Shown here: one piece after another, positions 1-64,000 of the stretch
Numbering within the stretch: position 1 is the stretch's first letter
Layout of the letters: every line of letters starts with the position of its first letter
Assembly: GCA_963969365.1 (NCBI GenBank)
Contig: OZ017747.1
Coordinates: 1,984,001-2,048,000 of the forward strand
Length of the DNA: 64,000 nucleotides
Reading direction: 5' to 3'
Origin: Asterochloris sp. CNOR1
Taxonomy: Eukaryota; Chlorophyta; Trebouxiophyceae; Trebouxiales; Trebouxiaceae
Position numbers and translations under genes: made by a program
Notes under the pieces: generated by a model
What the model was told of the DNA's origin: nothing
Databases searched by the model: none
Seen by the model: the letters and a program-made list of their open reading frames with translations, nothing else

Positions 1-2988
1 TCTGCCTCAAGCTGGCGCACTGTGGCCTGCAGCTGCTCCTTCTCCTGTATGGCAGCATGGGCAGGGATCAAAGAATCAGTGTCAAAGCAGCTGGGCCATG
101 TTCCTCAGCAGAGGTCAGAGTCATCCCACACATAGCCCACCCAAAGGACGGCCTGCACATCTGAGAGTCAGCTAGGGCCACAGCACCTTTAAAATTCACA
201 GCTCAGATTGAGATTGGCCTGGGGTCGTGTGGAAGCAATCTGTTGCCGTGGCAGCGAGCCTCAAGATTGTGCAGCTGCACCCTAGCGCCACCCACTGTGC
301 CCAGCCTGGCCCACCTGCTGCAGCTCATGGTAGGCTGCCTCCATCCTGCGCTTGTGATCAGCGGCACTTGTGCGCAGCTCGTCCCTGGCAGCCTGCAGCT
401 GACTGATCTCATTCCTTGCTTGCTCCAGGTCCTTGATGCTGCGCTCCAAATCCTGCATACACAGCCAGAATCCATCAAGCTGTCCTCAAAGCAAAGATGA
501 AGCACCCAGGCTCTATGTAGCCAGGCTCACAGCGCGTGAGCACTGTGTGGAGGAAGTTCCCTTGTGCAAAGGGTGCACAGTCTGTAAGAGGCATCTGTTC
601 CGGAGTGACCTCACCCCTTGGAGGTGCATGGGGCTGTCTGGGGGAGAGGAGTGCACCGACGTGCTGATGCCCCGCAGGTGGTGCTGCTCAGGCTGCTGGC
701 CCACAGACAGCTTGTGCTGCAGGGCTGGCACTGGCCCCGCAGCCTCATCGCCCTCAGACACCTTGCTCAGCCTGCACACAGCTCATGACTTTGTCAGTAG
801 CCAATCTGCTTGGGCTTCAGGGCCAAGCGTGCTGGAGGCCGGCAGTTGTGGCAACCTCGGGGGAGATTGGGTGACACATTTTCAGCAGTCTTGATCCCAG
901 TGTTTGAAGGCACAGAGGCTGCTGCAGTCAGATGGTCCCAGAGGCAATCTTGAGGGCACAGGTCTTTGCTGTGCTAGCAAAGCCGAGTGTAATCAAGGCG
1001 TACCTGTGTTGGGATTTGATGGCCTGCACTGGTGCCTCCTGAATGTGGTCCTCAAAGCCCCTCAGGTCCTGGTCATGATAGTGGGCGTCCTCATTGCTGG
1101 ACAGGCCAGACATCACGGAGACCTCTGTCATCTCATCATCAGAACCCATGGCCTGCATGAAACCCTTAGCATCTATAAAGGTGCCAGGCAAGCACCCTCC
1201 CTTTTCGAAGCACCAGTGCAGCTCCCTACAACTGACTTGCAGCGGCCTTCCTAGCGCACTGTGAATGCCCAGGGCACACTTACACATCTGCCACTCATGA
1301 GCGACCAGCGGCTGCGTACTGCTGATAAAAAACACTTGGCCTGTAGACAAAAGCTGAACCACAAATGCTGAGCCAGAAGCTGCAGCTGTCTAACATCCCT
1401 GCTCCACCTGGCGACCGCACATACCTGTCAGCAAACAGCAGATGCAGGAGAGCGCCTTTGACCACCCGGTGAACACTGCCAACCAAAGGCTGACCTCATG
1501 CCCATTGGTAGCAGCATCACACAGCCTGGTCTGTGCTAGCATAAGCCATTGCGCTGTTGAGACACCTGCGGCAGCTGCCCGGTCCCCTTGCCAGCCATGC
1601 TCCATCTGGCTCAGTGCAGGCGGATGCAGTGCCGCGCACCTTGACCATGTGGCCCGACACCTTGAGGCGCAATTGCCCCGCAGGGAGAGCTTTGGAGAAG
1701 CCCTTGCCTGCGCTGAAGGGCGTCTGCACCACCAGGTGCTGCTCCTGGTGCTCCATGGAGACGTGCTTGGCCATGTCCACCACCACCTTGCTGACAGTTA
1801 CCATGCTATCGTCATCGTCTGCCTTTGCTGCTGCCTGGACTTTGAAGACGTACTCCTGCATCACAGTTCTCTTCAAATCAAAGGGTGCCTGCACCTTCAG
1901 GCCCCTGCACCTTCAGGCCCCCGCCCAGCTCATGTGTGCTCAGCTCTGAGAGGCTGTCCTTGGCCTTTAAAACAAACTCCTGCAGCAGCGACACTTCCAT
2001 TCAGGCCATGGTCTGTGCTGATGGCGCTTGCTTCTGGAGGATAGGCTTGTCTCCCTGCTGAGCACATGTGTGCTCACTTCAGCGCTGCTGTCTTGGCCTT
2101 GAAGACATATCCCTGCAGAGGCATCTGTCAGTAGGCTCACCTCAGAGCACTCAGTGTCTTCTGCACAGGCCCACAGGCTAAAGCTTGCACAGCTCACTTG
2201 GGCTCAGCCTACAGCCTGCACCTGCAGGGCCTGCTCAAATGCTGGAGCTCAGACACCCATCAGGCTGCACCAGGCTCAGTCCACAGAGCTATGCTGAGCT
2301 CAGCCACAGTTTTGCAAGGTCAATCTGTGATGATGGAGGCTTCTTGCCTCAGGCAGGGAAGCAGCGGTGGCTCTGCCGGCATGAGCTGGGACATGAGCTT
2401 AGAGTAAGCGGCAGCTGGTTCATACAGTGCTGAGCAAGGGGTTGGATGGACACAAAGCCTGAGCATAGGCAATCGATGGAATGACAAGTATGGTCAGCAA
2501 TGGTGTCAGGGCTGACCTTGGACTCGACATCACTGGTGTTCTTTGGGTCGCGGTACACCGTGGCCACCTGCGAGAGCGTCTCTCGCCAGTGCGCGACGCC
2601 TGCAGATGAGCAGGCAGGCCCCATGTGAGACACGCCGTGGCCATCAGGTAAGCAGCAGCAGCAGGCTAAGCGGAAGGCTCACCATTCTCGACAGCCACCG
2701 TTTTGGTCATCTGCACCTTTGCGCCACGTGTCCATACAAGCCTGCATGTCTTGATGGTGGGTGGGATGTTTTCAAGGCTGCTGATAGTCACATCGAAGCG
2801 GAACTTGACAGCCAACTTATGCTTGCTGCGCCTGCAGGAATCAGCGAGAGTGGCTCTGGTGAGCTGCAGTCAAACACAATTCCACCTCAAATGAGCGCAG
2901 ACTTTAGCAAGTCAGGGTTATGCCCAAGCTGTACAGAACTCAAGGAGGAGCCTTGCCTGTCAATCTGCCGTGAGAACTTGGCAAACAT
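1..2988 (-). CDS. NT-C2 domain and coiled-coil protein (3' end beyond window)
   Basis: Multi-exon gene read leftwards from an ATG at 2988-2986. Exon 1 (starts MFAKFSRQID) joins through a GC-AG intron to an exon at about 2833-2690 reading KLAVKFRFDVTISSLENIPP and TCRLVWTRGAKVQMTKTVAV, then VAHWRETLSQVATVYRD (about 2600-2525) and EYVFKVQAAAKADDDDS with VVVDMAKHVSMEHQEQHLVV (1855-1640). This order (basic start, FxFDVTI strand, W/G-K strand, acidic linker, final strands) fits the N-terminal C2 domain of EEIG1/EHBP1 and its plant relatives, thought to bind membranes. Further left the exons turn into coiled coil: IKDLEQARNEISQLQAARDE (about 460-310) and EKEQLQATVRQLEA at the edge. An acidic SDDEMTEVSVMSGLSSNEDA linker (about 1150-1090) separates the two parts. 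The cargo or partner is unknown. The gene continues left of base 1, so its C terminus is not seen. Confidence 0.75.
1836..2120. repeat. Three-copy array of an exon start with its acceptor
   Basis: The real exon of the NT-C2 gene begins at 1855 (minus strand, CAG then EYVFKVQ). Two degraded copies follow upstream in the intron with borders near 1979 (CAG then EFVLKAK) and 2112 (CAG then GYVFKAK), spaced 124 and 133 bp. The second and third copies also share flanking bases (around 1926-1960 and 2060-2092), so the duplicated unit is about 130 bp. Confidence 0.7.
1890..1921. repeat. 16-bp direct tandem repeat, two copies
   Basis: The stretch CTGCACCTTCAGGCCC occurs twice back to back inside the intron that also holds the exon-start copies of the NT-C2 gene. 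No function is visible. Confidence 0.8.
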
Positions 2989-3279
2989 GATGCTCTTATA
3001 CTGAGCAGCTCAGAAACTCAGCCCCTCAAGATTTGTTGCATTGCTAGGCGGCATTCGCAGGGCTGAGACAGCAGGGATACCACTTCAAGGGCCGCATCAA
3101 CCATCCTTGTGGCTGTCAGCGGGCTGTGTGGGCTGCTGAGCAGGCGATGGTCTGTACTGTCTGCATTAGACTTTGTCTGATTGCATGATCCAGATCACAG
3201 GCCCGCCTATGCAGCTCACTTAAGGGAAATGTTGCTTTGACTCGGGCATTTCGGCGTTTGCCTGCATGCATCTTCCGAC
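2989..3279. promoter_or_regulatory. Shared upstream region of NT-C2 gene and chlorophyllase
   Basis: About 290 bp between two divergent start codons. It must contain both 5' leaders and promoters. I see no clear TATA box or repeat in it. Confidence 0.4.
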
Positions 3280-5202: not shown

Positions 5203-5317
5203 AATGCGCTCTTGACCTGCTGGCAAATTGATGCTGAACCAGGATGTTTTGCTCGATTCCACATACCTCCCCCGCCTCTTCTGAAATACACACAATGATG
5301 GTGTACATCAGATCACT

Positions 5318-6983: not shown

Positions 6984-7092
6984 ACCGCAGTGTGCACAGG
7001 CGTTTGCAGGCTCAGCTCGAAGTCTGTGACATTTGTCGTCTTCCATTCTTGCAATGAACTTAGATTCAGCAAACAGTCTGATTGCCGCTTTC

Positions 7093-16404: not shown

Positions 16405-16501
16405 GCTGATGGCAAGTGTTGCTGTGTGACTGTATCTCTGTGAATTGACAATGCAGTCCTCAGCAGGGCCTGCTCCTGAAATGCTGCTCTTCACAGATCC
16501 T

Positions 16502-19457: not shown

Positions 19458-22400
19458 TCAGTGAGCGCCCACCTTCTCCTCGGCATCGCCTTGCGCATCA
19501 CGCGACTGCCAGGTGCCGCCACCAGCCAGCAGGGGGCCTGGCATGTCATCAGCGCCGGCAGACGCACCAGCGCCCACTGCGTGATCCCACTTCAGCCACT
19601 GCTGCTGGGCGGAGGTGTCTGGGGCCCCTGCCAGGTGGTGGCTGTGGTGCAAGGGCAGCACGAAGAAGGTGTGCATGGAGCGGCGCACCTCAGAGTACAG
19701 CTTCTGCAGGCAGCCATTGGTGCCTCTCAGCCTTTACAACCTTGCGGCTGGATTTGCTTCCCTGCTCCACACAGGCAGGGCACTGCAGGCATGCTGGTGT
19801 CAGGCGCTGGTGAGTCTAGTCTTCACACCTCTGCCGCATCCAGAGGGTGCTGAAGCAAAGCATGCCTCTGAAGCTCCAGGTCACCCAACTCCGTATCAGT
19901 GCAGGCCCAGGTGGAGGAGGGCATGCAGACAGGTAACAGCGCCCAGCTGGCAGCATGGGACTCCTGTGCAATCCCCACCTGGGCCAGCAGCACACAGTCG
20001 GTGTGCAGGATGGTATTGCACCCTTCGCGCAAGCTCGTCTGGGTGCGAAAGTCGGCCACAATCTGCACGATGCGGTCGCGCAGGCGGGCGATGGCCATCC
20101 CCTCAGGGATGCGCCTGATCAGCCGCAGGGGGTTGACATAACCCCCGATGTGGTCTAGAAGGCTGCCTGCACCAGAAGAGGTGCAGGCTTGCAAAGCATC
20201 TGCAGGCACAGGTTGAAGCTGGCACAGATCCTAGCGGAAGGTCCAGGCCTGCACAGCCGGTGACTCGGCAGCAGGCCAGGGCTGGCAGTGCTTGCTGACA
20301 GCAGTGTATGACTCAGTGGCATGAAGCTGCTTGCAGGGGGCAGAGCAATCAGGGCAGCAGGCCTGTGTTCATGTGAGGCGTGTCCTGGAACTGATGCTGA
20401 CATGCTCGGTTGCACCATGGGAACGCTATGTCACTTACCCTTCTGTCTATGGTCACATAGCCCCTAGCACAGCTGCTCTGCAGCAGAGCTTGAGGCTGCC
20501 CCACCTGTCAGGGAGGCGTTGCCCAGGGCCAGGGTTATCAGCAGCTCCCACAGCTCATCATCCCGCTGCATCTGCACAAACTCAATTGCCTGCAGGCAAG
20601 TGATGCAAGGTCTCGAGGAGCACCACGCTGCAGGCACTCAATATTGCTTTAATTAAGAGGCTGCCAGCATGCAACAACAATAGCTGATGCCACAGCTGAT
20701 GCCCCAATACCAGTCCAGACTTGGACACTGTCCCATACAAAGCGCAGTGGGATGGCCAGCAGGCCCCAAGTTGGCAGCAGCACGCCATCACGTGAACTGC
20801 TGCGCCAAGACGCACAGGCAGGGAGACCTACCAGCACAGGCCATCCGCACACCCCAGATCAAGTGCTACCCTCTCAACACGTTCAGCATCCCTGGCGCAC
20901 ACCAAGCCACCGCATCTCTCCAGGCACACGAAAGAGCTGCTCAGTGACGAGGTGCAGGGCCTTGGGCCGGCACCGCCCATGAAACACACAGACCGGCAGC
21001 TCAGGCAACCTCACAGCGGGGAGTGCCACACCTGGCACCCACCTGAGGGATGTTGTTGAGCTGCTCGATGATGAGGTGCAGGGCCTTAGTGGCATTGCCC
21101 ATGCGCCCCAGGATGAAGACCTGCTCGCTGACAAGGCCGCGCGCGGTGCAGATCTCATAGGCCGACTCCAGGGAGTAGGACTGGCTGCTGACCAAGAACT
21201 GCATCAACCGCTTGGCCTCAAACTCCGCAAAGAGCTCCACCTGCAGAAGGGAGGGCCCAAGGCAACTCTGAGCAAGCGCACTTTGCAGACAGCGCCACCT
21301 GCAGGCAGAAGCGGCCGGTTGCAGGTGACAGGGGGCTGCAAACAGGTAGCCTGCAATGAGGGTTCCTGCAAAGGACAGCCTATCAGAAAAGACGCAGCAC
21401 GCCGGCCTCCAGCCAGGCTGCAGAATGCAGAGCAAAAGTGCTGTGAATGCAGCAAGCTTGCAGGTGAATCCACCCCTGAGTGTCAACTGTAACTGCCCAC
21501 CTGCTGATCTGTAAAGTTGGCGGCAACTGCAAACCTGGCTGCAGCTGTCCAAAGTTATTGTGCACCTACTCACCTGCAGGTCCGCAAAGTCAGCTGCGGC
21601 TGTCTGGTCTGCCCTGAACAGCCGGTCCAGGTAATGATGTAGGCGCTTGCGCCACTGCCGCGCCTCAGCGTGGTCGCGTCGCTGCACAGCCTCCTCCTGC
21701 TGCTCCTGCAAGCCATCAGACAGCAAGTTCCTTGATGGGGGGAAGGGCAAAGTGCTACAGCGGCAAGAGTGCCCTATTGATTGTAGCACAGCTTGCATGA
21801 GGCAGCGGGAGTCTATGGCGAAACGCATGCAACAACAGTTCTCCACAAGACAGAGCTCTTGGGGATGCTGATGTGTTCCATGTACTTTCTCAGCCAAGCA
21901 GCATGCACAACAGCATGTGCAGCAAGCATAATTCAGCCCCACCCCAACCTTCCATGCCAGCACCTGAAGCCGCCATCTTCTAGTCAGGCCACCCATACTG
22001 CTGCTCTAACAGACGACCCCACTTCGCAGCATGTCATGTAAGATCACCTGCAGCTTGGCCACCACCACCTGGGGAGGGACCTCATACTGCTGCTCCACCA
22101 GCAGCTGCGTGGCCCGGACCTCGTCGATGGCCATCAGCTGGGGCACATAATCCCCCAGCAGGCGCAGCAGCCCGTGCTCGGCAATGAAGTCAAACACGGC
22201 GGCCTCCCTCTGCTCCAGGTAGATGGCCAGCGCCATCTCATAGTGCCCCTGCAGCTGGTAAAGGTGGGCAGCCACCTGGAGCAGTTCGCTGGTGTTGCCG
22301 CCAGGGGCGCGCATCCTGCAATCAGATAGTACATCCTTGGCCTGCTGCAGGGCAGGCAAGGAATGGGAGGGCATGTTTCTGCAGATAGGACAGATTCTGC

Positions 22401-40369: not shown

Positions 40370-42000
40370 ATGGTACTGAAATTTGAGGATGACAGCCTGG
40401 AGGAGGTCAGGCATCTGCACTGCGTTGCAAAGGTTGCTCTGTGTTGTGTGCCGCACACATGCATGCGCTGGAGGCAACCATCTGTGAGGTGCATGCAGGC
40501 CTATGGACTGTACCAGAGCACTAGTGCCTTCCCCACAGACCTACTATTCAGTGCTCTGGGGAGCCTGGTGAGCGGTGGCCTGCCCCTTGGCCATGTCTGC
40601 TGATCCCCAAGCTCTCTCATACCGCAGATGTCTCCTCACTGATGTTTGACTGTGCAGGTCTGGTGGCTGTCCTTGACAAGCACTTACAACCAGTTGAGCC
40701 CAGTTGAGGTGGCTCTGTTTGTCACTAGGCTTTTAACTGGCCTGCTGCCGCTAGTGCTTATTTTGTCAGCCCCAGGATGGTATCAGCGGCACAGGGACTC
40801 AGTTGTCGTCTTCCTGCGGCTCAACACCATGGTCAGTGCAGCTCACACATGCACATGTGTGCCTCTTCGCAGTGCTGGCCGGAGGCAGACTCTCCTCTCA
40901 ACCAAACATGTTTCTGTCAATGTGTGCAGCTTGCAGCATATGTGGCCTGGGACAAGATCTTCTTGACAAAGGTCAGCCAGTTTACCTCCCTGTACCTTAA
41001 GCATTTCTGTCATACTGTTGCACCACCCAGTGTGGCTGCCACATGCAGGACTACTCCACATGGGCCTCCTTCTTCAAGGTGCTGCTTCATGCTGCTCCTT
41101 GTTGCTTGGCTCATGCTTGCCTCGAGCTACACCACACATCTCCTGAGAGCTTTCAGTCACCTCGGCTGCAAAAGGAGCCTCATGGTTGCAGACTGCTCGC
41201 AGGTCATGATTTTGGCAAACAAGTGGCCATTCCTGGGCTGTCTTGTGGTGGGCTTCTGGGTGCGCTTTTGGATATGCCTGCCGGTGCACACTCTGTGCCT
41301 CGCAGTTGAACTGGCCTCCAACAAGAACTGCTGCACCGTCATGACTGGCAGGTAACACACGCCTACACAGCACTCCTCCTCGATGTGGTGTGCTCACCTG
41401 CACTGCTTGGTGCATCCCAATCTTGGCTCTGCAGGCAAGGCAGTGGGGCCCTCTTGCAGCGGCTTGCGGGCGGCTGGAATGACAGCGTGCTGCGAGGGGC
41501 TGGCGGCTTTCTGGAGACAGACGACTGGCATGCCTGCGTGGCCACAGGCGTGCTGATACAGACACTGTTTGGACACCTGCTGCCGCTGATCTCTGCTCAT
41601 GAAGTGGAGGTGAGTATGCTCTCCTGCCTGCTGATTCAGGCTCTCAAAGGGGGGGCCACCTTGTACAGACGACATGCCTTGATGTGCAGATGCGCCTGCG
41701 AAAGTCGTTTCTGCGATTGCAGCATCGCCATTCAAGCCTCTGGACCAAGTGAGAGTCTGCAGAGCATCCGTGCCTTCCTTGAACTCCTTTCTGTCCTGTA
41801 CTGCTGTCTCACAGTGCTGTCAGGTGCAGGCCGGATATCCTTCAGGTGCTGCCCATCCTCATTGGAATGCCCATCGCCATCCTGCTGGCGTGGCCACACT
41901 ATGAGGTGGGTGATGCGCGGCTGATGACCTGGTGCCATCGTGAAGGAGGTGCAGCTCACAACTCCTGTTTGCTGTGCAGCTGCTAGTCTTCATTGTCTGA
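40370..42000 (+). CDS. Multi-pass membrane protein B, unknown family, tandem paralogue of A
   Basis: Starts MVLKFEDDSLEE, then AYGLYQSTSAFPTDLLFSAL, VWWLSLTSTYNQLSPVEVAL, LLTGLLPLVLILSAPGWYQR, AAYVAWDKIFLTK, MILANKWPFLGCLVVGFWVR with FWICLPVHTLCLAVELASNK, VATGVLIQTLFGHLLPLISA, and an end reading LIGMPIAILLAWPHYE joined to LLVFIV (stop 41998-42000). The order of exons, their lengths and the ends match gene A throughout, so A and B arose by tandem duplication; divergence outside the central NKW...ASNK block is large, so the duplication is old. Family and function are not recognised. Confidence 0.75.
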
Positions 42001-45600: not shown

Positions 45601-48600
45601 GCCTGCTTGATGACATCTCACAGCTCAGGGGGAAGTTGGGCAACTTGGGGGTTCGGGGTAAGAGCTGGGCAAGGCCCTGCATGGCCTTGCCTGAGTGGAG
45701 GGGCCATCCTGTGCCTGTCCCTTCGAGTGCTGGACCCACCTTGGCGGCCTTGGCACCTGTTCAGCAGGATGATGGCCAACAACCTCCCACCACCTGAGCC
45801 TGTTTCGTGCCTGCGCCCTGCAGGCTGATTCAGGACCACTTCCTGGTCCTGCTGCGCCACTGGAGCCTGTTTGAGGCCCTTCAGTTCTCCGCCTATGTGG
45901 CTGTGCGTCTGCAGACCTGGCATGACAGGGGCCGCCGCACTCTGCAGCATCTGCTGGTCACTATGGGCTACCCGGCCAGGCAGTACCAGAAGAAGTACGG
46001 TAAGCATCCTGGGCTCAATGCTTTTGTGCGCTGCTATGTGCATGGTGAGCACCCAGGCACCAGAGCTGCACGTGGGTGAGCAGCAATCCCCCCCGCGAGG
46101 TGTAGTAAAATGTGGTGAACAGCCAGGGCATGCAACAGTGCGCACTGCAGTGGTAGGTCCTGACATCACAGAAGACACCAGGCAAAGTGCCGGACCACCC
46201 TGTAGGCAGAGCGCCAACAAAGTATTGCCAACCTTGGCACGTCACCTGTAGTGGTGCCGTCGAAGGGTGGCAGCCACCTGGCAAGCCACAGGCATCCAGC
46301 AGGGTCTCCCGTGCCAGCCCAGCCGCTACGCTGCCAGGTTCCAGTGCAGGCTGCCAGGCAGGAACCATAGCGCTCTCCCTGTGCTGTCCATGCAGGCGCC
46401 ATGCAGGCCGAGTTCCAGCGCATGCTGGCGGACCGGCTGGAGGAGCATGCCCCGCACTACAGGCTGACCAACCTGCAATACAGGCAAGTGTTACCAGGGG
46501 ACTGCAGACAGCTGATGTCACTGACAAAGCAGCCAGCACCTCCATCGGCGCACCTGGAGCAGCAGTGAAGGGAGGACTGGCAGGCCGCCTGGCCTGTGCA
46601 TGCCAGAGGTTGCCGCAGCTGGTGCTGCATGCATTGTGGTGCCATGCCGCAAGCCCTAGTCAGAAGCTAGGCCTGACAGCCTGATGCCACACTCTTAGAG
46701 GAGTACTGTCTCTGCTGCTTGGATGCCGCCACTGCTGAGATGGGTGCTGTTCTTGCCCCAGTACCTTGGTTCGTCAGTCCCCTCGTGTACCGCTGCAGCT
46801 GGTCCATGTGTAGGCACGTCTAATGGTTGCAGCAATGCAGAGACTGCTGCTAGGCTGGGGGTTCCACAGCACCTTACTACCAGCCTTGCCCTACAGGAGC
46901 TTTGAGATCCAGCACAGCTATGACCGCCAGACTGCGACAGACACGGTGCACGCTGTGGCTGCGCTGCTGGAGACTCCCCCACAGGGCCATGAGGACACGC
47001 CCGTCGAGCGCTTTTGGTGAGCATGGTCCTAAGAGCGTTGCAATGTTTGGGTATTTTGCTGGGCGTTCTTGTCAGCCTCATGTTTCTGAAGCAGGCTTGT
47101 AGTTGTCTGTCCTGTCTCTGAGGCTGCATCTTGGGCGACCTGCTCTGTGAGTCAGCCATGTGGGCGGGTGGACACAGCTTTGACCGGGTCAGCGTGCACC
47201 CAGACCTCTACAAATGCCATCGAAAGGCCCCAGCTTGTGCCTTTCATGCTGCGTGCCTGCTGCCATTTAATGCCCTGAAGGGTCTGGTGCTGTCAAAATA
47301 GGCCTCACTGCTGAGCTGCTGACCCAACCAGTGCTGGCTGTGCCTGCGGGCCGGCACTGAGGTCCTGGCTGTGTATGTGAATACTGTAGATCACCCAGCA
47401 TGGGCAATGCATCTGCCACAGTGTCTCACCTGGTGTCGGCTGCCCGCAGGCAGGCTTTCAAGGCTCTAGCTGTGGATGAGCGGGTCAAGCTCTTCGCGCA
47501 CGGCCTGGACCAGTCCAAGCAGGTGCAGCGCGCCGTCGTCATGTGAGGCTCCCGACTGTGCTGCTGTGCTGCACAGGAACATGACAGGGGTACAGGGCAG
47601 CACAGCGTGTGCACTGCCTCAGCTCTGGCTCAAACATACCTGTAAGGCTGCCGCTGGGCTGTTGCTGCGCTGCACTGCTGGTCCCTGAAGCTTAGGGCAG
47701 CCGCGAGCTGCTGTCAATGTGGATGGTGGCCAGCTGGCTCGTGCTCGCTGGTGCTGCAGTGCAACGCGGCCTTCTTTGCCAGCAACCAAGCAGCTAGCTT
47801 CACACTGCTGAGACCAGCCTGCAGGGATGGGGGCCTCATTCTGGCTCGCAGCCCCGGGTACATGAACACCAAGCACTACCACCTCTGGAATCTGTCCGCC
47901 CAGGAGGTCAACAACAAGGTAGGATGCAGCGCACACGGCATCTGCATCTCAAGCAGAGTCCTGTACCTTGTGAGTGGTAAGCTACAACATCCTGAGATGT
48001 AGTGATGCCCGCTGCAGGCCATCCTGTCGCGGCCTCTCACGCTCGCTAAGCTGGGGCACTTCCTCATGGAGGCCAGGTGTCCAGTGCCATGTGCCGCTGC
48101 CCGCTGCAACCTCAGTGCCCCAGACACTGCAGGGCTCGGGGCGCCTGCTGCACTGCTGTTGGTTCCCGCTTGCTGCACCTGCGCACCCTCTTGATGCTGC
48201 ATATTCCACCAGAGGGGCAAGTGCTGCCAGGTTGCCCCCCAGCAGCAGGCAGTGCCCCTATGATCATCTGCGCTGCCTCCTGTGCCTGCCCTGACCTCCC
48301 AGCAACACTGCCACTTGGCAGCTCAGTCCAGCAGCCTCCCCCACAGTAGCTTCGTGCCAGCCTGGTGCCTAGATCAGCTCTGTGTTCCATTGTAAATGTC
48401 CCATGCACAGCATGAAAGCTAGCCTGACTGGGGTGCAGGTACCACCAGACGGGCAAGCGCAAGAGCGTAGTGCTCGTCGCCCCTGCAGACGGGCAGCGGC
48501 AGTGCCTCGTGATGGGCCTGGTGGGGGGCAGTACCCTTGCCACACAACAGGTGCAGAGCAGCCCTTGCTGCGTTTCTGTGCTCATTCCAAAAGCTTCTGT

Positions 48601-50133: not shown

Positions 50134-53100
50134 TTAATCCCACCTGTTAAGCAGCCTGGTGGTGGAGTAGTTGAAGCCATCCTGTGGCTTGATGCGGCGG
50201 TTGGTGGTGCGGCATGTGTTGACCGCGGTGCGGACCTTGGAGGCCAGCACCTTGCCCAGCTCCACGCCCCACTGGTCGAAGCTGTTGATGCCCCAGATGA
50301 AGCCCTGCAGGCACACATGCCACCGGCTACGTTGGGATGCTGCACTGCGCAGCTGCATCTGGTCTTGCAGTGGCCTGTGCTGAGCTGCAAGGTTTGTCTC
50401 GTCCTGAAGGCCTGCAAATGCCACTGGCAATACAGGCAAGCAGGCCTCCTGCACTGTGGAATGCTGCTGCGGGCGCGCCTGACCTCCAACAGCCCTCCAG
50501 TGGGGCTGCCATTTTGCAGAGGCAGCTGACACCAGTACTTGAGGCAAGAAGTTGATTAAACAACTGGGGGAGTTATGAGGCTGCCCTTGCCTGTGTAAGA
50601 CCACAAACAGCTTACAACACACAGCGAGCAGCACTGGAAATGCAGCAGCTTTTCCACAAGCTGCCATTGTAAGTGCTGTGCTTGCCTGCACTGCCACCCT
50701 GTGCTGTGACAGAAGGATCCCCTCTGTTGTGTAGCCTGCTACCAGCAGCAGACAGAGCCACATGACGGTGTGAGGCATGCCTGCGTTTCCCTGCCGCGCC
50801 ATGGTGTGCTGGCTCTCTGCCACCCTTTGCAGGCAGTGTGCCAAGGCAGCTGCCCCAGTACAGAAGCTTACGGCTCACCTGCACCGCCACCCTGTGCTCA
50901 TACATGGACAGGATCTGCCCCGTGGTGTAAGCGTCCAGCGCTGGGAGCAGGATGCTGAGGGAGGGGCGGTTCCCACTGAAGGTCTTGTGGGGGATGAGGT
51001 GGTCCGGCACATTCTCCGAGCGCAGCTCGATGGCGGTCTTGCCCTTGGCCAGGGCATCGGCTTGTGCAAAGAAGTTGCACATCAGCTCATCGTGGTTGGA
51101 CACCACCTCGCCCTGCAAACAGACATGACTGATGAAGAGGTCATGACAGCACAGCATGCGACCATTTTGAAGCCCATGAGGCGCCACTTGTCGTGCTGGG
51201 CTGTCAAAGCAAGGGCTTGGGAGGTTGCGAGCACGTCTGAGGGGCAACACCTGGGCAGCAGCCTATGGCCTGTGGCACACAGAACCAGGGACTAGCACGC
51301 AGCCCACTCCGCCAGCAGTGTGCAGGCTGGCCTTGGGCCTGGGCAGCATGTGGTCAGGCGCTCAAATATGCACCAGGTACCAGCAACCATCAGAGGGGTT
51401 TTGCACCACACTGTGTGGTGTCCAGGGGGCCTGTCACAGGCATGCCTGGCTGTTAAATCTGCCTGTCTGAGGTACAGGCTAAGCCGGCTGGACAGACGTC
51501 AGAGAAAAGAGCAGGCTCCTCAAGGCAAGAGTGTTTGTCGGGCGCTTCATCAGAGCATGCCCACCAGGCGTCCCTGTGATCACAAGTACCCCATCAGCAT
51601 CTGAACAACTCATGTCCACCTTGAGGTACACGCTCTGCTGGCTCTTGACGATGCCGATGAATTCAGCGGGGATGACCCGCCCCTGGTGGATGAGCTGGTA
51701 GAAGGAGTGCTGCCCGTTGGTGCCGGGCTCCCCAAAGTCGACCTCACCCGCCTCGAACGGCAAGCGGGTGCCATCAATGGCCACGCCCTTGCCATTGCTC
51801 TCCATGGACACCTACACCGAGGGGGCACAGCCAGGTGCAGGGACATGATGAGCAGGGAGGGGCACTGGTGCTGCTCCAGCTGCGTGGCCACAGCTGCTCC
51901 AGTTGAGTGGCCACACCTGGTGCATGCACCGCAGATTCTGTGCAAGGCCTCCAGTCTTCATGCTTTCTGTGGGCCAAGGGAGCCATGCAAGCAAGCTGGT
52001 TGCCAACACAGAGGAGGTGCCTGCAAGCACCCCTGACCCCATGTGCTCAGGGAATCTGGTGGCCCGGTCCTGCACACCTGTCGGATGTGGCCAGCTTGAC
52101 CAATCCCTGGTTGAGGACTCCAAACATTGAGACCAGCAGAAGGCAGTTCAGCGCTTAACCAGCATGAGCCGGGGCGATGCCCAATGTGCCCACACCCCCT
52201 TAGGCCGCCCCATCAGCTGGCAGCATGAGGGACTCAGCGGGGTGGCCACGACTCTGCAGCCAAGCACAGTCTGCCCCACCTGCTGGATGTGGGGTGCCAG
52301 CTTGGCCAAGGCCTGCGTGTAGGGCAGGATGGCACGAGCGGGGTACCCCAGGAAGCTCACATTCCACACGCTCATCAGGCCCAGCTGCACAGGGATGTTG
52401 TGCTCATGGGGTGCTGTGCGGAAGTGGGTGTCCATGTTCCAGGCACCTGCAGGGGAGGGTGGTGCGTGGTCGCAGTGTCCTGTGTGCTGAAAAGACTTAA
52501 GAGGGCTGAAATGGCAGGGATGCTTCGACTCAAGCCCCAAGTCAAGGGTAGCAAACTTGCGATGCTGTGTGTTGCACCGCTGCTGGCAGCAACTCAGCAG
52601 GCTGCCCCAGCCTGGACAGTTGCGGGAGGGAGCAGGCAATCAGGGGCCTGCTCAGCGTTCTGACCCCACCTGCTGAGCAGGGGCCAGCAGGGCAGCAGCC
52701 CTGTGTTCATGCAGCCTGCATCCTGCTGCTCACCCTGTAGGCTGCCCATTGCCTCAGAGATGCAAAGCATGCACATGCAACAAGCCCTCCTCGTCCTGCA
52801 GGGCCTTCTGTGGCCTAGGATGCCTAGACTGAGCGCATGCAGCAAGGCCAGGGCTTCCTGTATAGTGTCACACCTGTGCTGCAGGACCAGGCACTGCACA
52901 GTTGCCACTACAGAGCTGCCAGACACCCACCGGCACAAGGCTGTGGCAGAAGACCACACAGCCCATCCTGCATGAATCTCGTTCTGTTTCACATGCAAAA
53001 GACCATTGCACCTGCTACCAGCATTGCAGCTCACCCTGCAGGAACTCCTGCATGACGTCAAACCCATACTGCAGTGCCAGAGGCAGCATGCCAACAGCAG

Positions 53101-56100
53101 AGGTGACGGAGTAGCGTCCGCCCACCCAGTCCCAGAATCCAAAGGCGTTCTTGGGGTCGATGCCAAAGGACTCCACCAGGCGCAGGTTGGTGGACACTGC
53201 CACCATGTGCTTGGCCACAGCCTCAGGGCCCAACTCAGTGGTCAGCCACGTCCTGCAAGCAGTTGTGGGGGATGTTCAGTCTTGTAAGCGGGCACTGCTG
53301 CTATGGGTGCACACTGGACCGCAGCCCCAGGGCCCAGCTCAATGGCCAGCCATGTCCTGCAAGAGACATGAGGCATTGTTGCATTTCTGGAGGTCAGTAT
53401 CACCATCTGGAATGCTGCAGGAGGCCTTGGCCTCGACTTGGGGTGTGTGGGATCATGACTTCAAGCAGCCCAGAGGCTTAGCTCAGTAGTCAGCTGCATC
53501 CTGCAGAAATGAAACAATGCAGAGACATTGGGACAGGTGTTGGGGCCAACTTTGGTGGTCAGCTGTGTCCTGCAGGCAGAGGGCCATCTCTCCATACATG
53601 CTCAAAGGAAGAGTACCTCAGCTGCTGTGGCCGCAAGCTTGCCACCACCTAAACAAAGGTCAGATGGGCAGCCATGTCCTGCAAGAGATGATTCAAGTGT
53701 TTTGCCTCAGTGATGAGTTCCTGCTTTAGGAGGACAGCAGGGGAGAACAGTCAGCTCCCCTGCCCTGCTTGTTCAGAGAGTAAGCAGCCAAGCAGCCAGC
53801 ACAGGCTGGCTGCCAGTGCAGCTGCACAGGTCTGCAACTTGGGCCTCAATGCCTGCCAGTGTAGGAGCAGACGGCAGCTGCAACGCTGGCACTCAGCAAC
53901 GCGCATCACAGCCACCTATCGGTCTGGTATTGGGAGCTTTCTTTTCACCATTATGAAGGCTCCAGACACCACAATAGCGCCGGCATTCCGCCAGAAACTG
54001 GCCCTACCTGACAGTACGGGCGTTGAGCATCGTCTCAGCTGTCGTGAAGGTCTTGGAAACCACGATGACCATGGTGGTCTCCGGCTTGAGCCCATTGAGG
54101 GCACGCGCCACGTCCACAGGGTCAACATTAGCCAGGAAGCGCAGCTGGCGCCCCTCAGCCTCTGCGGCGGCTGCCTGGTCCGTCCTGCACCACAGCACGG
54201 CACTCAAGGCGAGGACAGCAGTCTTGTTGAGGAAATGAGACTGGAGAGCAGTTAGAGGCTGCAGGGGCCACTCAAGAGTTGGTGCCCACCGCACAGTTTG
54301 CTTGTGGTCCATGCTTGTCAATGTGTCAGAGACATGCAGCAGCCAACCCTGAGTACACCTGGACGCTGGGTGCACCACCAGAGCCTCACAAACCGCACTG
54401 CTGAAGGAGGGCAGCAGCCAGTCGTTGCTGGACTGAGATCTGGGCTTGATCAACAGGGGTCTGCTCAACTAGCAGAGCAAGCCAAAGAGCACCTGAGGGC
54501 TGTGAATCCAAGGAGGGCTCCAGGCAACAATGCCCTGTGCAACCCGTGCAGCGGCCAGCCTCAACCAGCAGCCCGCATGTGCACGACACAGGAACCTCGT
54601 AGAATTTCTGGCCAGGCCAGGTGCAGCAGCCACCCCCTGGACCGCACCTGAGGGCTGTGTGGACAAAAAGGGGCCCCAGAAAGGAGCCTCCAATGCCGAT
54701 GGCCACCACGTCCTTCAGGGGCTTGCCAGTGGCCCCCAGCCACTCCTCGCTGCGCACTTTGTTACTGAATGCCTGGATCTTATCCAGCACCTCCCACACC
54801 TCGGGCACCACGTTCTTGCCATTGTCCGTCACTACCTGCACCCACAGTGGACGTCTGTGATGTTTGCCAGGGAGGGGTACAGCAGCACTGAGTAGCATGG
54901 TCTTGAAGCTGTCGCCCAGAGCCATGAAGCAGCCAGGAGAGGCGGAGTGGTGGCTACACATGCAGCAGCCAAAGGCACGCAGTTCTGCTCTGCTGGAACC
55001 CATTAACTTCCGGCAGCCAGTCTGGGACGCAGTTCACAGACCAAAGGGGTCAGGGTTTTGGGGGACCGACATGTGCCGTTGCAGTGGGTCTTTGTCTTCT
55101 TGACGGCATCCATGACTCTCTGCAGCTAAATGGGGCTCTGAAGACTTGGGATGCAGCAGCAGTGGGCATCACCCAGCTATGCAAAATATCATGCCAGCGG
55201 CCTGGCTGCACCATGCCCATGGGCAGCCTGTCAGCCTGCACACCCCTGCAGCCAGACACTGCCGAAATCGGCCTGCAACTCATTATCATGGAGCAGGGAG
55301 ACATCTTGCGCTCTGCTCAGTTGTCATGGCCTGCCGTCCTGGGGCCTTGCTCAGCGAAGCTGTCCTCTCCCACCTTCTCCATCCGCAAAGTGTGGATAAA
55401 ATACAACCACCAGTACCACCTTCGAAGCTCACTCGTCTCTGGGGGCCACATGCAGCCGAACAGTGGCGGGGACACCAGCAGCTTCAGGCTCCCCTTGGCC
55501 CAGTGGCCCGGCCAGGCCATAAGCAGCACAGCAAACACAAACAAAGACTTTCAGGCTCACCTCGTCCCTGGGAGCCCGCAGGGCAACATGCAGTGCGGCG
55601 CGGTCCTCAGTCACGTTGAGGTGCTCGCCGCCAAACATGCCATCGATCTTTTCCTTCAGCTGCGCCTTCTTAGACAGGGCTATCAGCAGCTGCAGCCAGG
55701 GCACAGAGTGTTTTGGGCAAGTTTCAGGTGATTTTAGGGTGACTTCAGGTGGTTGTCTCAATCTAGGTTGTGGCTGGGGTGTGGCGCTAGCTGGAGCACT
55801 GAGGCAGTGCTGACCTGCAGGGTCTTTGAGGTCACCCTTTGCCGCGAGAAGTCGCAGAAGATGCTGTCGTGCTCATGGAAGAGCTCATCGCAGCGGGCAT
55901 TGTCTGCCAGCAGATCCCGCAGGTGCCTGCAGGAGACTAGTGCCTCAATGCTCATACCGGTTCTGCTTGCCCTACAGTGTAGGGCTTTATGGGCAGCAGC
56001 ATTCCTGCAGGGGTCCCTGCACGGCAGCCGATGCTGCACGGCATGCAAGCGCAGGAGCCAGGGACTGGAGTGCCATGAGCGAGGCGTCAGGGTTCAAGGT

Positions 56101-57070: not shown

Positions 57071-59454
57071 ATGGGCGAGTGCAGCAGCAGAGGTGTGCAG
57101 GGGTTGGAGTGGCTGGCTAGTCAACGTATTACATTGACCTCATTGCTCCAACCGATGTTTTGTGGCAAGCTAGGCCCCTCTCCAGTCCCTCAGCACAGAC
57201 CCCAATGCCTGCAGAAACCCAGGGGCTTGAAGTGCAGGGAAAGACAGAGCCCCAGACAGGCCAATCTCCTTTGTGCAGCCAATGCAGGACCAGCTGATAG
57301 GTCTGGACCCCAGAATGGTGCTGAAGCAGCTGCTGCTGTCGTAGAGGTATGTGTCCTGTCTGCCATATGGCAGCGTGCATGCTCAAGCTGCCCCCTGCCT
57401 GCTCTGCAGGAGTGTATGAGGCTCGTACAGAGCGGGGAACTCGACTCCTTGTCCAACTACCTGCCAAATGAGGTGCTTGACAGATGTATTGCAAGGCGCA
57501 AGACAGCCAGGTGGGGTTCAGGCAGTTTCTGTCGCAATGATCGCGGGCCTTGCATGCACTGCTGGAAACTGATGGGCACTTCGGCACTACATATAGAGCT
57601 TTGCACGTTCAAAGAGCTGCATGTGTGTAGCCCTGGGCCCCTTCCTGCCCCATGCATGACTGTCCCCTGGCGTGATGTCCTAAAGTACACTTCAGAGGAG
57701 CTGAGCAGTGCATGTCGTGGAGGGGCAGCATGCCTGGACGCCACTCTTCACAAATTGCAGCAGGATGGCAGCCGGGCTGCCCATGAGAGAGCAGCACAGA
57801 GCATGGATGGCAGCCGCTCACTTGCCCATGTCCTGTCTGTGCCGCAGCGTGATGTCTCCCCGGCATACCATAGAAGAGCCTACCTTTGCAGACATTGTTG
57901 ACAGCAGCAAGCGCAGCGAATTCTGGATGGACAGCTTTGCCCGGCGCAGCTTGCTGTTCTCCACACCTACTGCCTGCCAGGTGTGGCCAGCCTGACCTAA
58001 TGGCGCAGCCTGCTGCTGTCCAGACCCACTGCCTGCCTTCCAGGTGGGGCACTTGTGACCTCCGCCTCCTCACTGACTGCCAGTCAGCTCTTAGTCTGCC
58101 TGCTGTTTGGCTGCCAGCAGCAGTGCACTGGCTGCACACCCCTGTGCATGTCCACACCACCCTCACTGTGCAGACCACCCTGTTCATCCCAAAGCGTCTC
58201 CAGAGTTTTGTTTCTGGAATTGTGGGTGTGCTGAGCTTGATGGTGTCACCCTTACCGATAGTATGGCAGCAGTGATTCATACGCCTTGGGGCTGCATGCA
58301 TCACACACAAGCCCCTGTGCCTGGTGCAGGTGCTGAGCTCCATGGTGACGGCTCCAGGCACCTTCCTGCAGCGCTGCTCTGTGAGTCTGCCCTCCGGGGA
58401 GCACATGACGCTCACCTTTGAGCTGCGCCTGGAGGACAGCCTGCAGCCAAGCTACAGGGGCTTCCGGGTGCGCACACCTCTGGTCCCTGCATGCATGCAC
58501 CACCTGCACCCACAGGCTTGTCCGTGCGTGCTGAAGTGGTGCAGGGCATGCACTATGCCCACTGCCCCCAGGGCAGATCGAGGCAGTTGTCAGTGGCCAA
58601 CTACTTTGGGCCTGCCTGCGCATGCATGACTGGCCTGCATTCCCATTGCTGCGCATTCAGAATGGCAGCAGTCACAAATGCAACCGAACTGCAAAAGCTA
58701 ATGGGTCACCATGAACAGTGCCGGCAACACAATGCCCCCACAGACTGATGCTGCATGGCTGAGGAGCTGTGCTCCTGTTGATGGCGCAGGTGGTGCCGCA
58801 GTGGGTGTTGCGCTCAGTCATTGGGGAGCATGAGGGGGCTGGGGAGCTGCCGACCTCGCCAGATCCCAGCTGGCCGCCAGAGGCTGTTGTGATGGCGCAG
58901 CTGGAGGCCCTCCAGTCAGTTACACTCCACCTGAGTCTGCCCCCTGCTCAGTGCCCACGATGTCTCCTCATGCATACCAATGCTTTTGATTGCTCAGTGT
59001 GCCACCTGGTGCTGCACCTTGTGAGGGACATGCCATCTCACTGCAGGCAGAGGGACGTTGCTCGAGTTTTTGCATTTGCCAGCCCCTCAAACCAAGCCAT
59101 GACAGGCCCACTGCCAAACTTTGCTGCCATGCTCAGCAGCCCAATGTATGAACCTTTGCTGGGTCACACACTGGCAGAGATGCACTTGGTTGCACAGAGG
59201 GGCTCAGACAAAGCAACCGTGGTTGTGCGTAAGTCATGCCTTTGCCGCATGTTCTGTCACAAGCTTCTGTTTGCTGGCCAATCTTGCTCATTCAATCACT
59301 GCCCTTTGCAGACGTCCTGCCCTCCCTTCAACTTCAGCAACTTGGCTACTCTGGCAAGCTGGTGTACTTGTGGGTCCTCTCATTGCAGGAAAGCCAGACC
59401 CTTTGTGCAAACTGCTGGGTGACAGACCGTGTGCAATTTCTCAAGCCCTTGTGA
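57071..59454 (+). CDS. Multi-exon gene, product not recognised
   Basis: Exons with agreeing phases: an Ala-rich end of a first exon (AEAAAAVVE, ends about 57347), ECMRLVQSGELDSLSNYLPN with EVLDRCIARRKTA (57410-57511), VMSPRHTIEEPTFADIVDSS with KRSEFWMDSFARRSLLF (57849-57980), VLSSMVTAPGTFLQRCSVSL with EHMTLTFELRLEDSLQPSYR (58331-58470), VVPQWVLRSVIGEHEGAGEL, SPMYEPLLGHTLAEMHLVAQ, and LPSLQLQQLGYSGKLVYLWV running to a stop at 59452-59454. The first part is helical and acidic/basic; the part with beta-like strands around LTFELRLEDS..PSYRG is weakly reminiscent of RGP1/arrestin-fold proteins, but I would not assign it. The start is uncertain (57071 is the first ATG in frame with exon 1). Confidence 0.5.
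57961..58060. repeat. Echo of an exon end and donor in the 57-kb gene
   Basis: CCTACTGCCTGCCAG then GTGTGG at the exon end (57980) is echoed as CCCACTGCCTGCCTTCCAG then GTGGGG with its border at 58043/58044, 63 bp into the intron. Confidence 0.6.
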
Positions 59455-60321: not shown

Positions 60322-63300
60322 TTAGCGCCAGCTCTGAGAGGCGCTGCTGCTACCAGCACCTCCTGAGCCAAAGGCTTCAGGAATGGTGTGCATCCCGTTG
60401 GTAGAGCCAGAGCTCTGCCGGCTAGATGCGTTCTGCAAATGAGCAGAGGTAAATGTGTGCTCCAGATCTGCAGCCAGAGAGCAGACCAAAGGTTCAGAGT
60501 TACAGGCCGGGTGCAGGTCTTGCCAGGGTGCAGTCTGCACCGTCTGGGCCGATCTCAGGGGCCAGCCAGACCAGCTTGGCCCGCCCCTGCTGGGCTGCCT
60601 CAGACTGTGATTGGACAAGCCAACTCACAAGGGGTGCTGTTGTTGCAGCCAGCAAGGCAGGTCCTTCGCAGTGATCAGGCCAGGGTTTGGGCAGGCAGGC
60701 CTGACAGCAAACAGACTGGAGCCTACCTGGAGCAGGATGCTCCTTGATGGAGCTGTGGCGGGTGAGGTGACTGCCCTGGCTCATACGCATCAGCTCTGCC
60801 ATGCGCTGCTGGCCGCCTGTCAGGCCCTCACTCCAAAAGTTGGGTCCTGAGTCTGCAGTCACAGGGACCACTTGTCAGAAATTCCAGTCTGAAGGCATGG
60901 CTGGCACACAGGGATGCTGGCTGCAGTGCCAAGCCGGCATTCATGTGCAGCCCTGGCTGGAGTGGCAAGCCGGCATTCGTGTGCAGCCTTGTTCATAGCC
61001 GGAGGAAGCCCTGAGCCCCCACAGCAGGCAGGACAATAGAGACTGATGTGTCTGCAGGCAGCCAAGAGTGCAGAGTGCACCACATGGCATCCCTGAGCCA
61101 TTTCAGACAGCAGTCGGCATACCTGACCACGATTGCGACTGCCCCAGCCGGCTAGGAGGGCCTCTAAAGTCTGAGCTGTGCTGCCCTGGGAACGGGCTGC
61201 CTGGATCCAGCAGCTGCTTCTGCATGAACGGGCTGGTGGGTGCTCGCTGCGCCTGGGTGGCAGGTGCCTCGAAGGGCTGCAGCAATGTCAAGCGTGAGCC
61301 TTGCTCAGCAGGCCAGCAGGTCCACAGGAGAGTGACCATGCTGCTGCCCTCACACATGGTAGCAAGCACGGAGGCCATGCTGTGGAGCGAGCCAGACACC
61401 TGGGCACTGCTGCTGCGGTGCTGCATAACAGCTCCTTGAGTGCCACGCATGGTCAGAATCTCAAAATACAGCTGCAAAGGCTCTGCAGATCAGGGCAGAC
61501 AGCGGGCAGCTACCCATGAGCCGGGCCTGCGGCTGCTGCTGATCCAAAGAAGCAACAGCATGCACACTGCCCAGCCCAGTATATGGCTGCAGCTCACATA
61601 CGAAAAAAGCAGTATGCACATGTCAACCCTTGCTGTGCATGCTGCACCAGACTTACACTACTTGGAGCCTAGCAGGAACGGGAGGCATGCTGAGGCAGCA
61701 GAAATGGCATCACAGGGAGTCCATTGCATAGCTGCTGGGGGAGGGCCGGGTGCCAGCCATCTATGAGAACAGCAGTAGCGAAGCTGCAGCAGGCGCTGGG
61801 GGTAGCATGCCTTACGTCCCACTTTCATGCAGCGAGCCCATAGGCCTGCCTGTCAACCCATTGCAGCAGCCCCCTTGAACGACATGCAGCCCGGCAGGGA
61901 CAGTTGCTGAGATAGAAGCAGTAGCCACAAATCATGGCCGCAGCTCACCTGCTGAAGTAGAAGCAGTGGCTGCAATTCATGACCGCAGCTCACCTGCTGT
62001 CGCTGGAGGGCCTGGTGCCCTGAGGGAGGCAGCCCCAGGCTTTGCGACCGCCGCTGCAGCCCGACCGGGGAGGACATGAGTACCCCCGCAGAGGGGGGCC
62101 GGCTTGGCAGGGGACTGACTGGCAGGCTGGCGTTGCTGGAGGAGCCTGCCAGGTTCTGAGAGCCGTGCTGCGACCCATGCTGAGAGGGTCCCAGCATGGG
62201 GGAGGGAAGCAGTGGCGTGATGGGCGCGGAAGGCGCGCTGTGCAGGCTGCCGCCGCCCTGCAGGCCATCAGGAGACAACAGTTGAGTGCCCAGGCAAACA
62301 GGATGTCAATCAGCCATCATGCATAGCACGCGGTGGGAGCCATCAGACACCAGCCTGGTCAATACGGACTTGCTGACGCCATACAGACCGGCCCTGGAGA
62401 CGCCATCAAGGCATGCGGTCTCCACTTCATCCCTGAGGCAGGCCCTGAGTCTCGGCTCCAAAAACCATTGGGTGCCTAGACAAGCACTCATGAGGCAAGC
62501 CAGCAAAGGGTGTCTTACTCTGAAGCGCTCAGCAGATAGTGGCAAGTGGAGCCCACCTCGTGCAGGGACTCTGCCCAATTGGGCATCAGCTGGTGCATGT
62601 GCGGCGGCTCAAATGCATTCACCTCGCCCTGCTGCTGCTGGGGGCTGAGGCCCTGCTGCTGCCCTGGTGACATAGCACCCATCTGCTGCAACCCTATCTG
62701 GTGTGGGTCCTGCTGCTGGGGGTGCCCCTGCTGCCGGAAGCCCTCTAGAGCAGGGTGCTGGGCGTACAGCATGCCCCCATGCTGCTGTTGGTGCATTGGC
62801 GGGAAGCCCTGGGGCTGCCCCTGTGATTGCTGCTGCTGCTGGCGCAGCAGCTGCTCGGCAGCAGCCTGCAGGCTCAGCCCTGGCAGCAGGTCCTCCATCT
62901 CTGGGCAGGGGTGGCTTGCCCCTGCCGCCATCAGGTTGGGCGACCCGCTGATGGGGCGCTGCTGCATCTGACTGCTCTGACTGAACCCTGGCTGGGCCCC
63001 ATGCAGGCCCTTAAGGCCCACGCCGGGCAACATGCCGCTCAGGCCGCGCAGCCCCGCTGCGCCCTGCTGCCCGCCCAGCAGGGACAGCTGCTGCAGCAGA
63101 GCCTGGGCAGCCACCACCTGCTGGTCAGACAGCGCCCCACTGGCGCTCAGCTCACTCAGCTGGCGCTGCTGCTGCTGCTTTGCGCGATCGTCAGCCCACA
63201 GCGCCTCCTGCAGCACCAGGGCGTGCTTCTCTGTCAGCACTCCGCCACTTGCATGCGTGTGTTAGGCTGCTGAGCGCCTGCTGCAGCATGAGAGGCATGT

Positions 63301-64000
63301 TGATGTTCTTGCAGCATTGCCTCGTCAAACACCTGCACCACCACCGGAAAATTTGGCAGCACTCACAATATGCCTGAGCAAGCGCTTGCTAGGGGAGGCA
63401 GCTCATCTCTTGGCTTGGGTCCTCCCACGGTAAGACTGGCCGCAAGGAAAGCCTAAGGCAGGACTGCTCAGCATGCGGCAATATCAGAGCAGACAGCGCC
63501 AAATCCTGGGCAAGAGGCATGGCTGGTCACATAGACGGCACCGGGTGTCACCTTCTCATGCTTGCTCATGCGCTTGTACAAGGCAGCCAGCTCCCGGTCA
63601 AAGTGCACGTTGTTGGGGTTCAGTCGGTTGCTCAGGTTGACGGCTGGCAGGGGTGCGTCATCACCGTCTGAGGAGCTGTCGCCACCACTGCGCCTCTGTG
63701 GCACACAAGCAGGAACATCAAATCTGGGCTATTGGGTGCCCCATGTTTGGCTGTTCCATGTTTTGCTTCTGTGACCCACACAGGATGCTCTCCCGCCACT
63801 GCATTTGACGAACCCCACCCGCCGGCACTGACAGTGCTTACTGCCCCAGGCTGAGGTTGCAGACCTGTCCTGCACAATGCCCGCTCCCAAGCATGGCGCC
63901 CTTCAAAGCTGCAGTCAATGCAAGCAACGATGCCCGTGCGATCAGGGTCTGCCTGACAACTGTGCGCTTAGTCCTGCATGCCTCACCTGAGCACGCTGTG
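60322..64000 (-). CDS. Gln/Ser/Pro-rich low-complexity protein (5' end beyond window)
   Basis: Exons read leftwards from beyond base 64000: RSGGDSSSDGDDAPLPAVNL with SNRLNPNNVHFDRELAALYK and RMSKHEK (about 63690-63550), then a large exon from about 63238 with KHALVLQEALWADDRAKQQQ, a helical AAQALLQQLSLLGGQQGAAG stretch and Gln-rich runs (AAEQLLRQQQQQSQGQPQ; GAMSPGQQQGLSPQQQQG), then SPMLGPSQHGSQHGSQNLAG, PFMQKQLLDPGSPFPGQHSS, GLTGGQQRMAELMRMSQGSH, and an end reading IPEAFGSGGAGSSSASQSWR, stop at 60322-60324. The composition suggests a disordered scaffold such as an RNA-granule or transcription factor, with short conserved-looking motifs (LNPNNVHFDRELAALYKRM). The family is not recognised. The 5' end is outside the window. 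Confidence 0.65.
60919..60990. repeat. 36-bp tandem repeat, two copies
   Basis: Units 60919-60954 and 60955-60990 share GCCGGCATTC and GTGCAGCC blocks and differ at four positions. They lie in an intron of the Q-rich gene. Confidence 0.8.
61912..62001. repeat. Young 45-bp tandem duplication of a splice donor in the Q-rich gene
   Basis: Units 61957-62001 and 61912-61956 are roughly 80-85 percent identical. Each contains, on the minus strand, CAGCAG then GTGAGCTGCGG, so the intron begins with the real donor (after 61994) and repeats it 45 bp later (after 61949). Confidence 0.85.

Follow-up and report, generated by a model that had tools for sequence, protein, structure and literature searches.

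Local copies of exon borders in introns of the green alga Asterochloris sp. CNOR1 and their likely origin in old short duplications

Described duplications at introns and the Asterochloris echoes

The origin of intron sequence and the reasons for differences in intron length are open questions. Intron gain by AGGT tandem duplication has been put forward (Rogers 1989; Hellsten 2011; both as cited in PMC4974935), and in the account given in that paper a boundary-crossing tandem duplication in the potato RdRp gene is one recent case in which a new intron was created (Ma et al. 2016). Tandem-duplication introns have also been reported in Drosophila (PMC2891723), and in vertebrates imperfect double-strand-break repair has been proposed as the source of repair-mediated duplications (Pace et al. 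2009, PMC2671141), a paper that also cites the 'doublets' of Thomas et al. Here we analyse a stretch of 64,000 nucleotides (the window, C2:1984001-2048000) from the 56.4-Mb, 21-contig genome of Asterochloris sp. CNOR1, in which introns hold degenerate copies of the exon borders that flank them, which we call echoes. A reading of the window made from its sequence alone had noticed them and had interpreted them as what would be an active case of intron birth and as possible reserve splice sites. A literature search, aimed in part at algal genomes, brought up no survey of border echoes.

As in AGGT intron gain, exon sequence is duplicated here together with splice signals and one of the copies is intronic, but the register typical of that process, which links the end of the upstream exon to the end of the intron, is absent. 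Unlike in potato, the outer splice sites appear to be the ones used, the intron only lengthens, the copies look mostly old and ∼9% of borders are concerned. The echoes resemble the repair-mediated duplications described in PMC2671141 in being short, local and direct, with many of them in introns. However, the human units in that study are larger (median 147 bp, in a search that required at least 50 bp) and lie ∼1.2 kb apart, possibly an effect of the method according to its authors, whereas the lags here are ∼110 nt; furthermore, only 4 of 824 human donors were partly exon and partly intron, whereas junctions are the peak in Asterochloris. With introner elements the echoes share that they are a genome-scale source of intron sequence, although introners form dispersed families and the four echo loci tested match only themselves. 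The event is of a known kind that is plentiful at borders here, at a rate known from this genome alone.

Border echoes against controls

To the window we added the 200 kb upstream of it (264 kb in total) and a 10-kb piece of each of four further contigs. A self-trained gene finder run on the 264 kb gave 83 genes with 527 introns, with donor consensus CAG|GTGAG and acceptor consensus CTGCAG|G; 429 of these introns were common to four settings of the program and their lengths had no frame bias. All the models come from this one program, and the main echo tests took all 527 introns after a length filter. A previous gene finder with weak intron penalties, which over-split the sequence (1888 introns, median exon 25 nt), was discarded. 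Each border query comprised up to 60 nt of exon and 30 nt of intron and was aligned to the rest of its own intron by a strict Smith-Waterman search, as permissive scoring did not separate the signal from the background. Introns shorter than 70 nt or with flanking exons shorter than 20 nt were left out. Removal of low-complexity best matches reduced the borders from 906 to 881, a filter not used for the other-chromosome, same-gene, shuffle and reverse-strand tests, and the sliding-query, CTGCAG-site and TGCAG-dependence tests took only introns of at least 200 nt. In the window, the models of CDC45, VPS41 and DNAJC11 match their Pfam families, and the GPI model protein can be aligned with the solved structure of a glucose-6-phosphate isomerase with no gap at the echo-bearing junctions (residues 214, 273, 402 and 544). 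The remaining gene names (e.g., NT-C2, CLC, LPA3) are putative labels taken from the sequence-only reading.

At a score of at least 56, 81 of the 881 borders (453 introns) matched their own intron, against 4.2 expected from the introns of other genes, and at a score of at least 64 the figures were 51 and 0.7. Before the low-complexity filter, 53 of 906 borders reached 64 in their own intron, compared with 0.4 in introns of the same gene, 0.6 in the dinucleotide-shuffled own intron and 1 of 906 in reverse complement; at 56 these values were 83, 4.1, 4.8 and 7, respectively. Shuffled introns and introns of unrelated genes, the comparisons proposed with the first observation, were therefore both near chance and the echoes stand out from them. 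On the four other chromosomes 8 of 104 borders scored at least 64 (0.04 expected), and exon-only queries were likewise above controls. A rank test against other genes' introns placed 7.4% of 338 donor and 6.0% of 350 acceptor borders at p < 0.005, where 0.5% are expected, and 0.6% and 1.4% in reverse complement. In the same test intron interiors were also above other introns (2.8% and 4.2%) and exon interiors slightly raised (1.2-2.3%); local repeats are general and the borders are their peak.

In the window CTGCAG, CTGCTG and CAGCAG are ∼11-fold over-represented and CTGCAG, which is also the acceptor motif, is the top 6-mer. Because CTGCAG is at once over-represented and part of the acceptor, which is mostly TGCAG|G and dominated by CTGCAG|G, chance similarity from word bias was the first suspect. 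It probably accounts for many of the echoes that had been called barely readable, since at a score of at least 44 there are 160 borders (of 881) with a match where 62 are expected, and weak echoes are largely noise. But controls carrying the same words gave 0.4-0.7 where 51-53 borders were seen at 64 or above, exon-only queries are above controls too, and the presence of TGCAG at acceptors is immaterial. The other-gene, shuffle and reverse-strand controls rule it out for scores of at least 56, and as a general account of the echoes we give it next to no credence.

The echoes are thus real and affect a sizeable minority of introns: 76 of 453 (∼17%) carry one at 56 or above, a few of these by chance; within the window the 22 echoed borders (of 227) belong to 21 of the 117 introns and are spread over 10 of the 19 gene models. 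The sequence-only reading was right that introns hold copies of their own exon borders, and nine of the ten genes that it named are covered by position at this score; the tenth, with the peptide DPFGLDALI, has no border echo at 52 or above and only an intron-intron repeat (17502/17570). Its statement that nearly every gene shows echoes at several borders was too strong given these proportions, while the confinement of the copies to introns largely holds: of the 42 repeat clusters that involve a junction, 36 have their second copy in an intron, 1 in an exon and 5 on a junction as well. In a genome search that passes over very common words, each of four echo loci had a single match, to itself (4/4), which rules out a dispersed repeat or introner for these four.

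Position, age and origin of the echoes

Sliding 36-nt queries peak at the junction, with 25 of 282 donor (−30 to +6) and 25 of 281 acceptor queries (−14 to +22) echoed (∼9%), and fall to ∼1% in the exon interior and to 2-6% within introns, where both directions are counted. The echo rate rises with intron length, from 4 of 267 borders below 180 nt to 22 of 159 at 350-500 nt and 22 of 71 above 500 nt, although longer introns also have more room for echoes; introns with an echo have a median of 453 nt and the others of 254 nt. The echoed junction could be mapped in 43 of the 51 echoes scoring at least 64, and it lies 45-229 nt from the real one; echoes at 56 or above in the window lie at 42-301 nt. 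More generally, 149 ungapped direct repeats scoring at least 60 occur at lags of 15-300 nt after removal of low complexity, against ∼2.4 expected from far lags. When the local repeats of the 264 kb were grouped into 109 clusters, those joining an intron to a junction were in excess (36 observed, 14.3 expected) and intron-intron clusters numbered 40 (32.1), with fewer than expected in the exon-intron (17 and 22.0), exon-exon (6 and 12.4), exon-junction (1 and 7.9) and exon-intergenic (2 and 4.2) classes. Only 2 clusters were intergenic-intergenic where 11.2 were expected, though intergenic DNA and introns should both be free to change.

We consider it probable, if by no means assured, that the echoes are relics of old short local duplications of DNA across junctions, by which introns were lengthened and not born. 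Units of ∼50-110 bp would have been duplicated in tandem or nearly so, presumably during DNA replication or repair, and some would by chance have spanned an exon-intron junction. With a donor or acceptor inside the unit, the outer site would in all cases still be the one spliced, the mRNA would be unchanged and the inner copy would become intron, a net lengthening of ∼100 nt per event, whereas duplications wholly within exons would be lost because they changed the protein. Later on, selection would hold the copy in the exon and the active splice motif while the inner copy drifted neutrally, and the pair would stay readable as an exon end plus a splice motif long after its intronic parts had become unalignable. 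A junction peak with only ∼1% in the exon interior is expected if the unit must include a splice site, and echoes borne by long introns are as expected for intron growth. Furthermore, contiguous units placed at random should leave ∼2.2 pairs at junctions for each one lying wholly in introns (1.58 from the start positions, multiplied by a survival of ∼1.4). Of 73 strict pairs, 47 comprise both exon and intron sequence and 17 intron sequence only, which we count in favour of this origin.

The visible match reaches a median of 30 nt into the exon and 10 nt into the intron (n = 50), with copies of median 49 nt and spacers of ∼60 nt. In the ungapped catalogue 22 of 58 donor matches end on the intron side at +3 to +12, and 34 of 57 acceptor matches end 4-14 nt before the exon; these edges approach the limits of the splice motif, which suggests that they mark what selection keeps frozen in the border copy. 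Median identity is 0.78 (90th percentile 0.89). Divergence at codon positions 1, 2 and 3 is 0.168, 0.194 and 0.227 (chi-square p = 0.04), so that the echoes are nearly unconstrained as coding sequence, the slight third-position excess being what silent changes of the exon would give. An initial continuation test, in which z-scores were raised past the unit as well, gave way to a shift-controlled test of the intron side, in which clear similarity extends only to ∼30 nt, and by a gapped, anchored one, in which 4 of 43 border pairs continue at p < 0.05.

Simulations bear on the age of the events. Steady contiguous duplication gives a median identity of 0.85, which is too high, an intron reach of 26 nt and visible continuation in 63% of pairs, and about a quarter of its echoes have an identity of at least 0.92, a level attained by only 4 of 64 real ones; the suggestion that echoes are generated continuously is not borne out. 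When old duplications of 50-100 bp are simulated, the exon and the splice motif being held frozen, the result is instead an identity of 0.79 (0.78 observed), an exon reach of 32 nt (30 observed) and continuation in 12% of pairs (4/43 observed). Because this simulation comes close and steady production does not, most events look old and few young.

Several observations weigh against a simple history of tandem duplication. In three acceptor pairs that are well preserved (identity 91-95% over 32-37 nt) the ungapped matches stop 4-13 nt into the intron and the spacers are 57-100 nt long; the pair in the intron at −174340 to −173883, counted from the window, continues with gaps (z = 4.8), and the other two fit short spaced copying better. 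Continuation in 4 of 43 pairs and similarity to only ∼30 nt imply that a fully contiguous tandem duplication misfits most pairs, and the intron reach of 10 nt falls short of the 16 nt of the best-fitting simulation. If the units are instead taken as short and spaced (∼45-60 bp), a hand estimate gives junction pairs not much above intronic ones, which the 47 to 17 exceeds unless ages are skewed old. Moreover, the intergenic shortage is not predicted by a uniform mutational process, and the extra copying of intronic CTGCAG sites is not needed by the model.

Spaced templated insertion is a possible but doubtful alternative, in which an intron break or stalled fork would have been repaired by copying 30-60 bp from a nearby border, perhaps primed by shared words such as TGCAG, with native intron left between border and echo. 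Such a process is known in vertebrates (PMC2671141), and the short visible copies with their spacers, the sharp ends of the well-preserved pairs in ungapped view and the purely intronic pairs with no extension beyond the matched part (n = 10-20) would agree with it; yet exon interiors should then serve as templates about as often as borders and are about ten times rarer, and insertion alone would not explain the echoes in the longest introns. Shared words may take part as anchors, since TGCAG and CTGCA crowd two edge bins of the intronic copies and a CTGCAG site within an intron is ∼2.4 times as likely to be copied as another position there (14/236 and 13/238 against 119/5020 and 114/5129 in the two directions, i.e., 5.5-5.9% and 2.2-2.4%). 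CAGGT sites inside introns were copied in 10 of 151 cases downstream and 3 of 133 upstream, and donors with AGGTG were echoed more often than those without (28/125 and 16/158, p = 0.008). However, acceptors are echoed irrespective of TGCAG (26/230 with it, 4/54 without), and exon-only queries showed no motif effect.

A few copies abut, the copy length equalling the lag (e.g., 61905-61999). In 6 of 43 cases the filler matches its own flanks in direct orientation (0.5 expected), probably as further local repeats, while inverted matches to the surroundings, which templated insertion might leave, are not general (1/43, 0.4 expected). A repeated element in the spacers was rejected, as fillers compared all against all score a mean of 32.8 and random intron chunks 32.2; among 850 pairs, 7 of fillers and 2 of random chunks reached 52. 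One intron holds a 59-bp identical direct repeat (L019:2433-2491 and 2524-2582), and the spacer between its copies includes adjoining sequence in inverted orientation, such as a template switch would leave; this single pair would suit insertion.

It is also conceivable, though we hold it unlikely, that junctions are hotspots at which a process linked to transcription or splicing repeatedly copies the exon border and its splice motif into the adjacent intron. This would explain why echoes peak so sharply at the junction and end at the splice motif, why junction pairs outnumber purely intronic ones and why such repeats are scarce in intergenic DNA.

If introns were born when an AG|GT segment of an exon was duplicated in tandem, as was first proposed for the window, the upstream exon end should recur at the intron end and the downstream exon start at the intron start. 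Junction-spanning duplications do exist here and the mechanism is documented elsewhere (PMC4974935), and both copies lie on junctions in 5 clusters where 2.2 are expected; these clusters are possible candidates for duplicated exon or intron ends. Nevertheless, 366 introns show the signature no more often than chance allows (at an identity of 65% or more, 1 and 2 cases where 0.7 and 1.35 are expected), it occurs in none of the 76 shortest introns, the 43 mappable echoes scoring at least 64 all keep a distance of 39 nt or more from the opposite splice site, and it is long introns that most often carry echoes. From the original interpretation, local duplication across splice junctions is supported, whereas intron birth is extremely improbable as the source of the echoes, and the activity looks mostly past.

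The sequence-only reading also held that echoes keep the border dinucleotides more than expected, and a further possibility is that selection maintains them as reserve, decoy or alternative splice sites. AG is kept in 18 of 21 acceptor echoes (other dinucleotides 69%, p = 0.10), and in 12 of 12 where at least 8 nt are aligned on both sides; but among donor echoes GT survives in 15 of 26 (62% for other dinucleotides, p = 0.69) and in 6 of 12 of the corresponding subset. Neither dinucleotide is retained significantly more than others. Echoes are under almost no coding constraint and their distances have no frame preference (17/15/16 modulo 3), and we regard selection for such sites as very unlikely.

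Echoes in genes of the window and intron growth

In GPI, on the minus strand, the acceptor border in use (53210-53259, the end of intron 53253-54007 plus exon; gapless alignment across residue 273) is echoed 104 nt upstream within the intron, at 53314-53363 (84% identical, score 128). This intron holds the acceptor motif once more at 53657-53688, in a copy 91% identical to positions 53336-53366 of the first echo. Three GPI donor borders are echoed on the same strand: that of intron 50305-50878 (50873-50929) at 50680-50733 (lag 193, 75% identical, score 85), that of intron 51812-52279 (52277-52315) at 52075-52109 (lag 202, 77%, score 69) and that of intron 54185-54647 (54644-54659) at 54489-54504 (16 identical nt, lag 155, score 64).

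VPS41, also on the minus strand, has an echo of the donor border of intron 22898-23296 (23280-23327) at 23136-23183 (lag 144, 79%, score 102), in a region (22880-23400) that matched only itself in the genome search. In its intron 20590-21042 a copy at 20934-20980 (lag 124, 81%, score 99) corresponds to the exon end at 21058-21102, the alignment ending 15 nt before the junction, and the acceptor border of intron 26160-26322 (26140-26171) recurs at 26209-26240 (lag 69, 78%, score 65). Other minus-strand cases are the donor border of intron 1905-2077 in the putative NT-C2 gene (2053-2107), echoed at 1919-1974 (lag 134, 77%, score 98), and the acceptor border of intron 34382-34672 in the putative LPA3 gene (34353-34387), echoed at 34413-34447 (lag 60, 78%, score 60). 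In the Q-rich gene the donor border of intron 61277-61993 (61964-61999, minus strand) has its echo at 61919-61954 within a contiguous 45-nt tandem repeat (61905-61999; lag 45, 86%, score 99); another intron position of this gene (60917-60988) is a 36-bp two-copy tandem repeat of 91% identity.

On the plus strand, the CDC45 acceptor border of intron 48077-48438 (48434-48460) is echoed at 48198-48224 (lag 236, 81%, score 63), and the donor border of intron 57981-58329 (57952-57987) at 58011-58050 (lag 63, 78%, score 73). The donor border at junction 30616/30617 of the putative CLC gene (30578-30623) adjoins its intronic copy (30624-30669; lag 46, 76%, ungapped score 85). Apart from the echoes, the neighbouring predicted genes at 38261-40037 and 40370-42000 have similar N-termini (MVLKF...) and are probably tandem paralogues.

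If about one in six introns and nearly a third of the borders in introns above 500 nt carry such fossils, duplication is a measurable route of intron growth, and the frozen exon copy provides an internal standard by which each event can be dated from a single genome. Such introns also call for care in annotation, as they contain false exon boundaries, plausible and similar to the true ones. Were junctions hotspots of copying after all, border duplication would be a main route of intron growth in this lineage.

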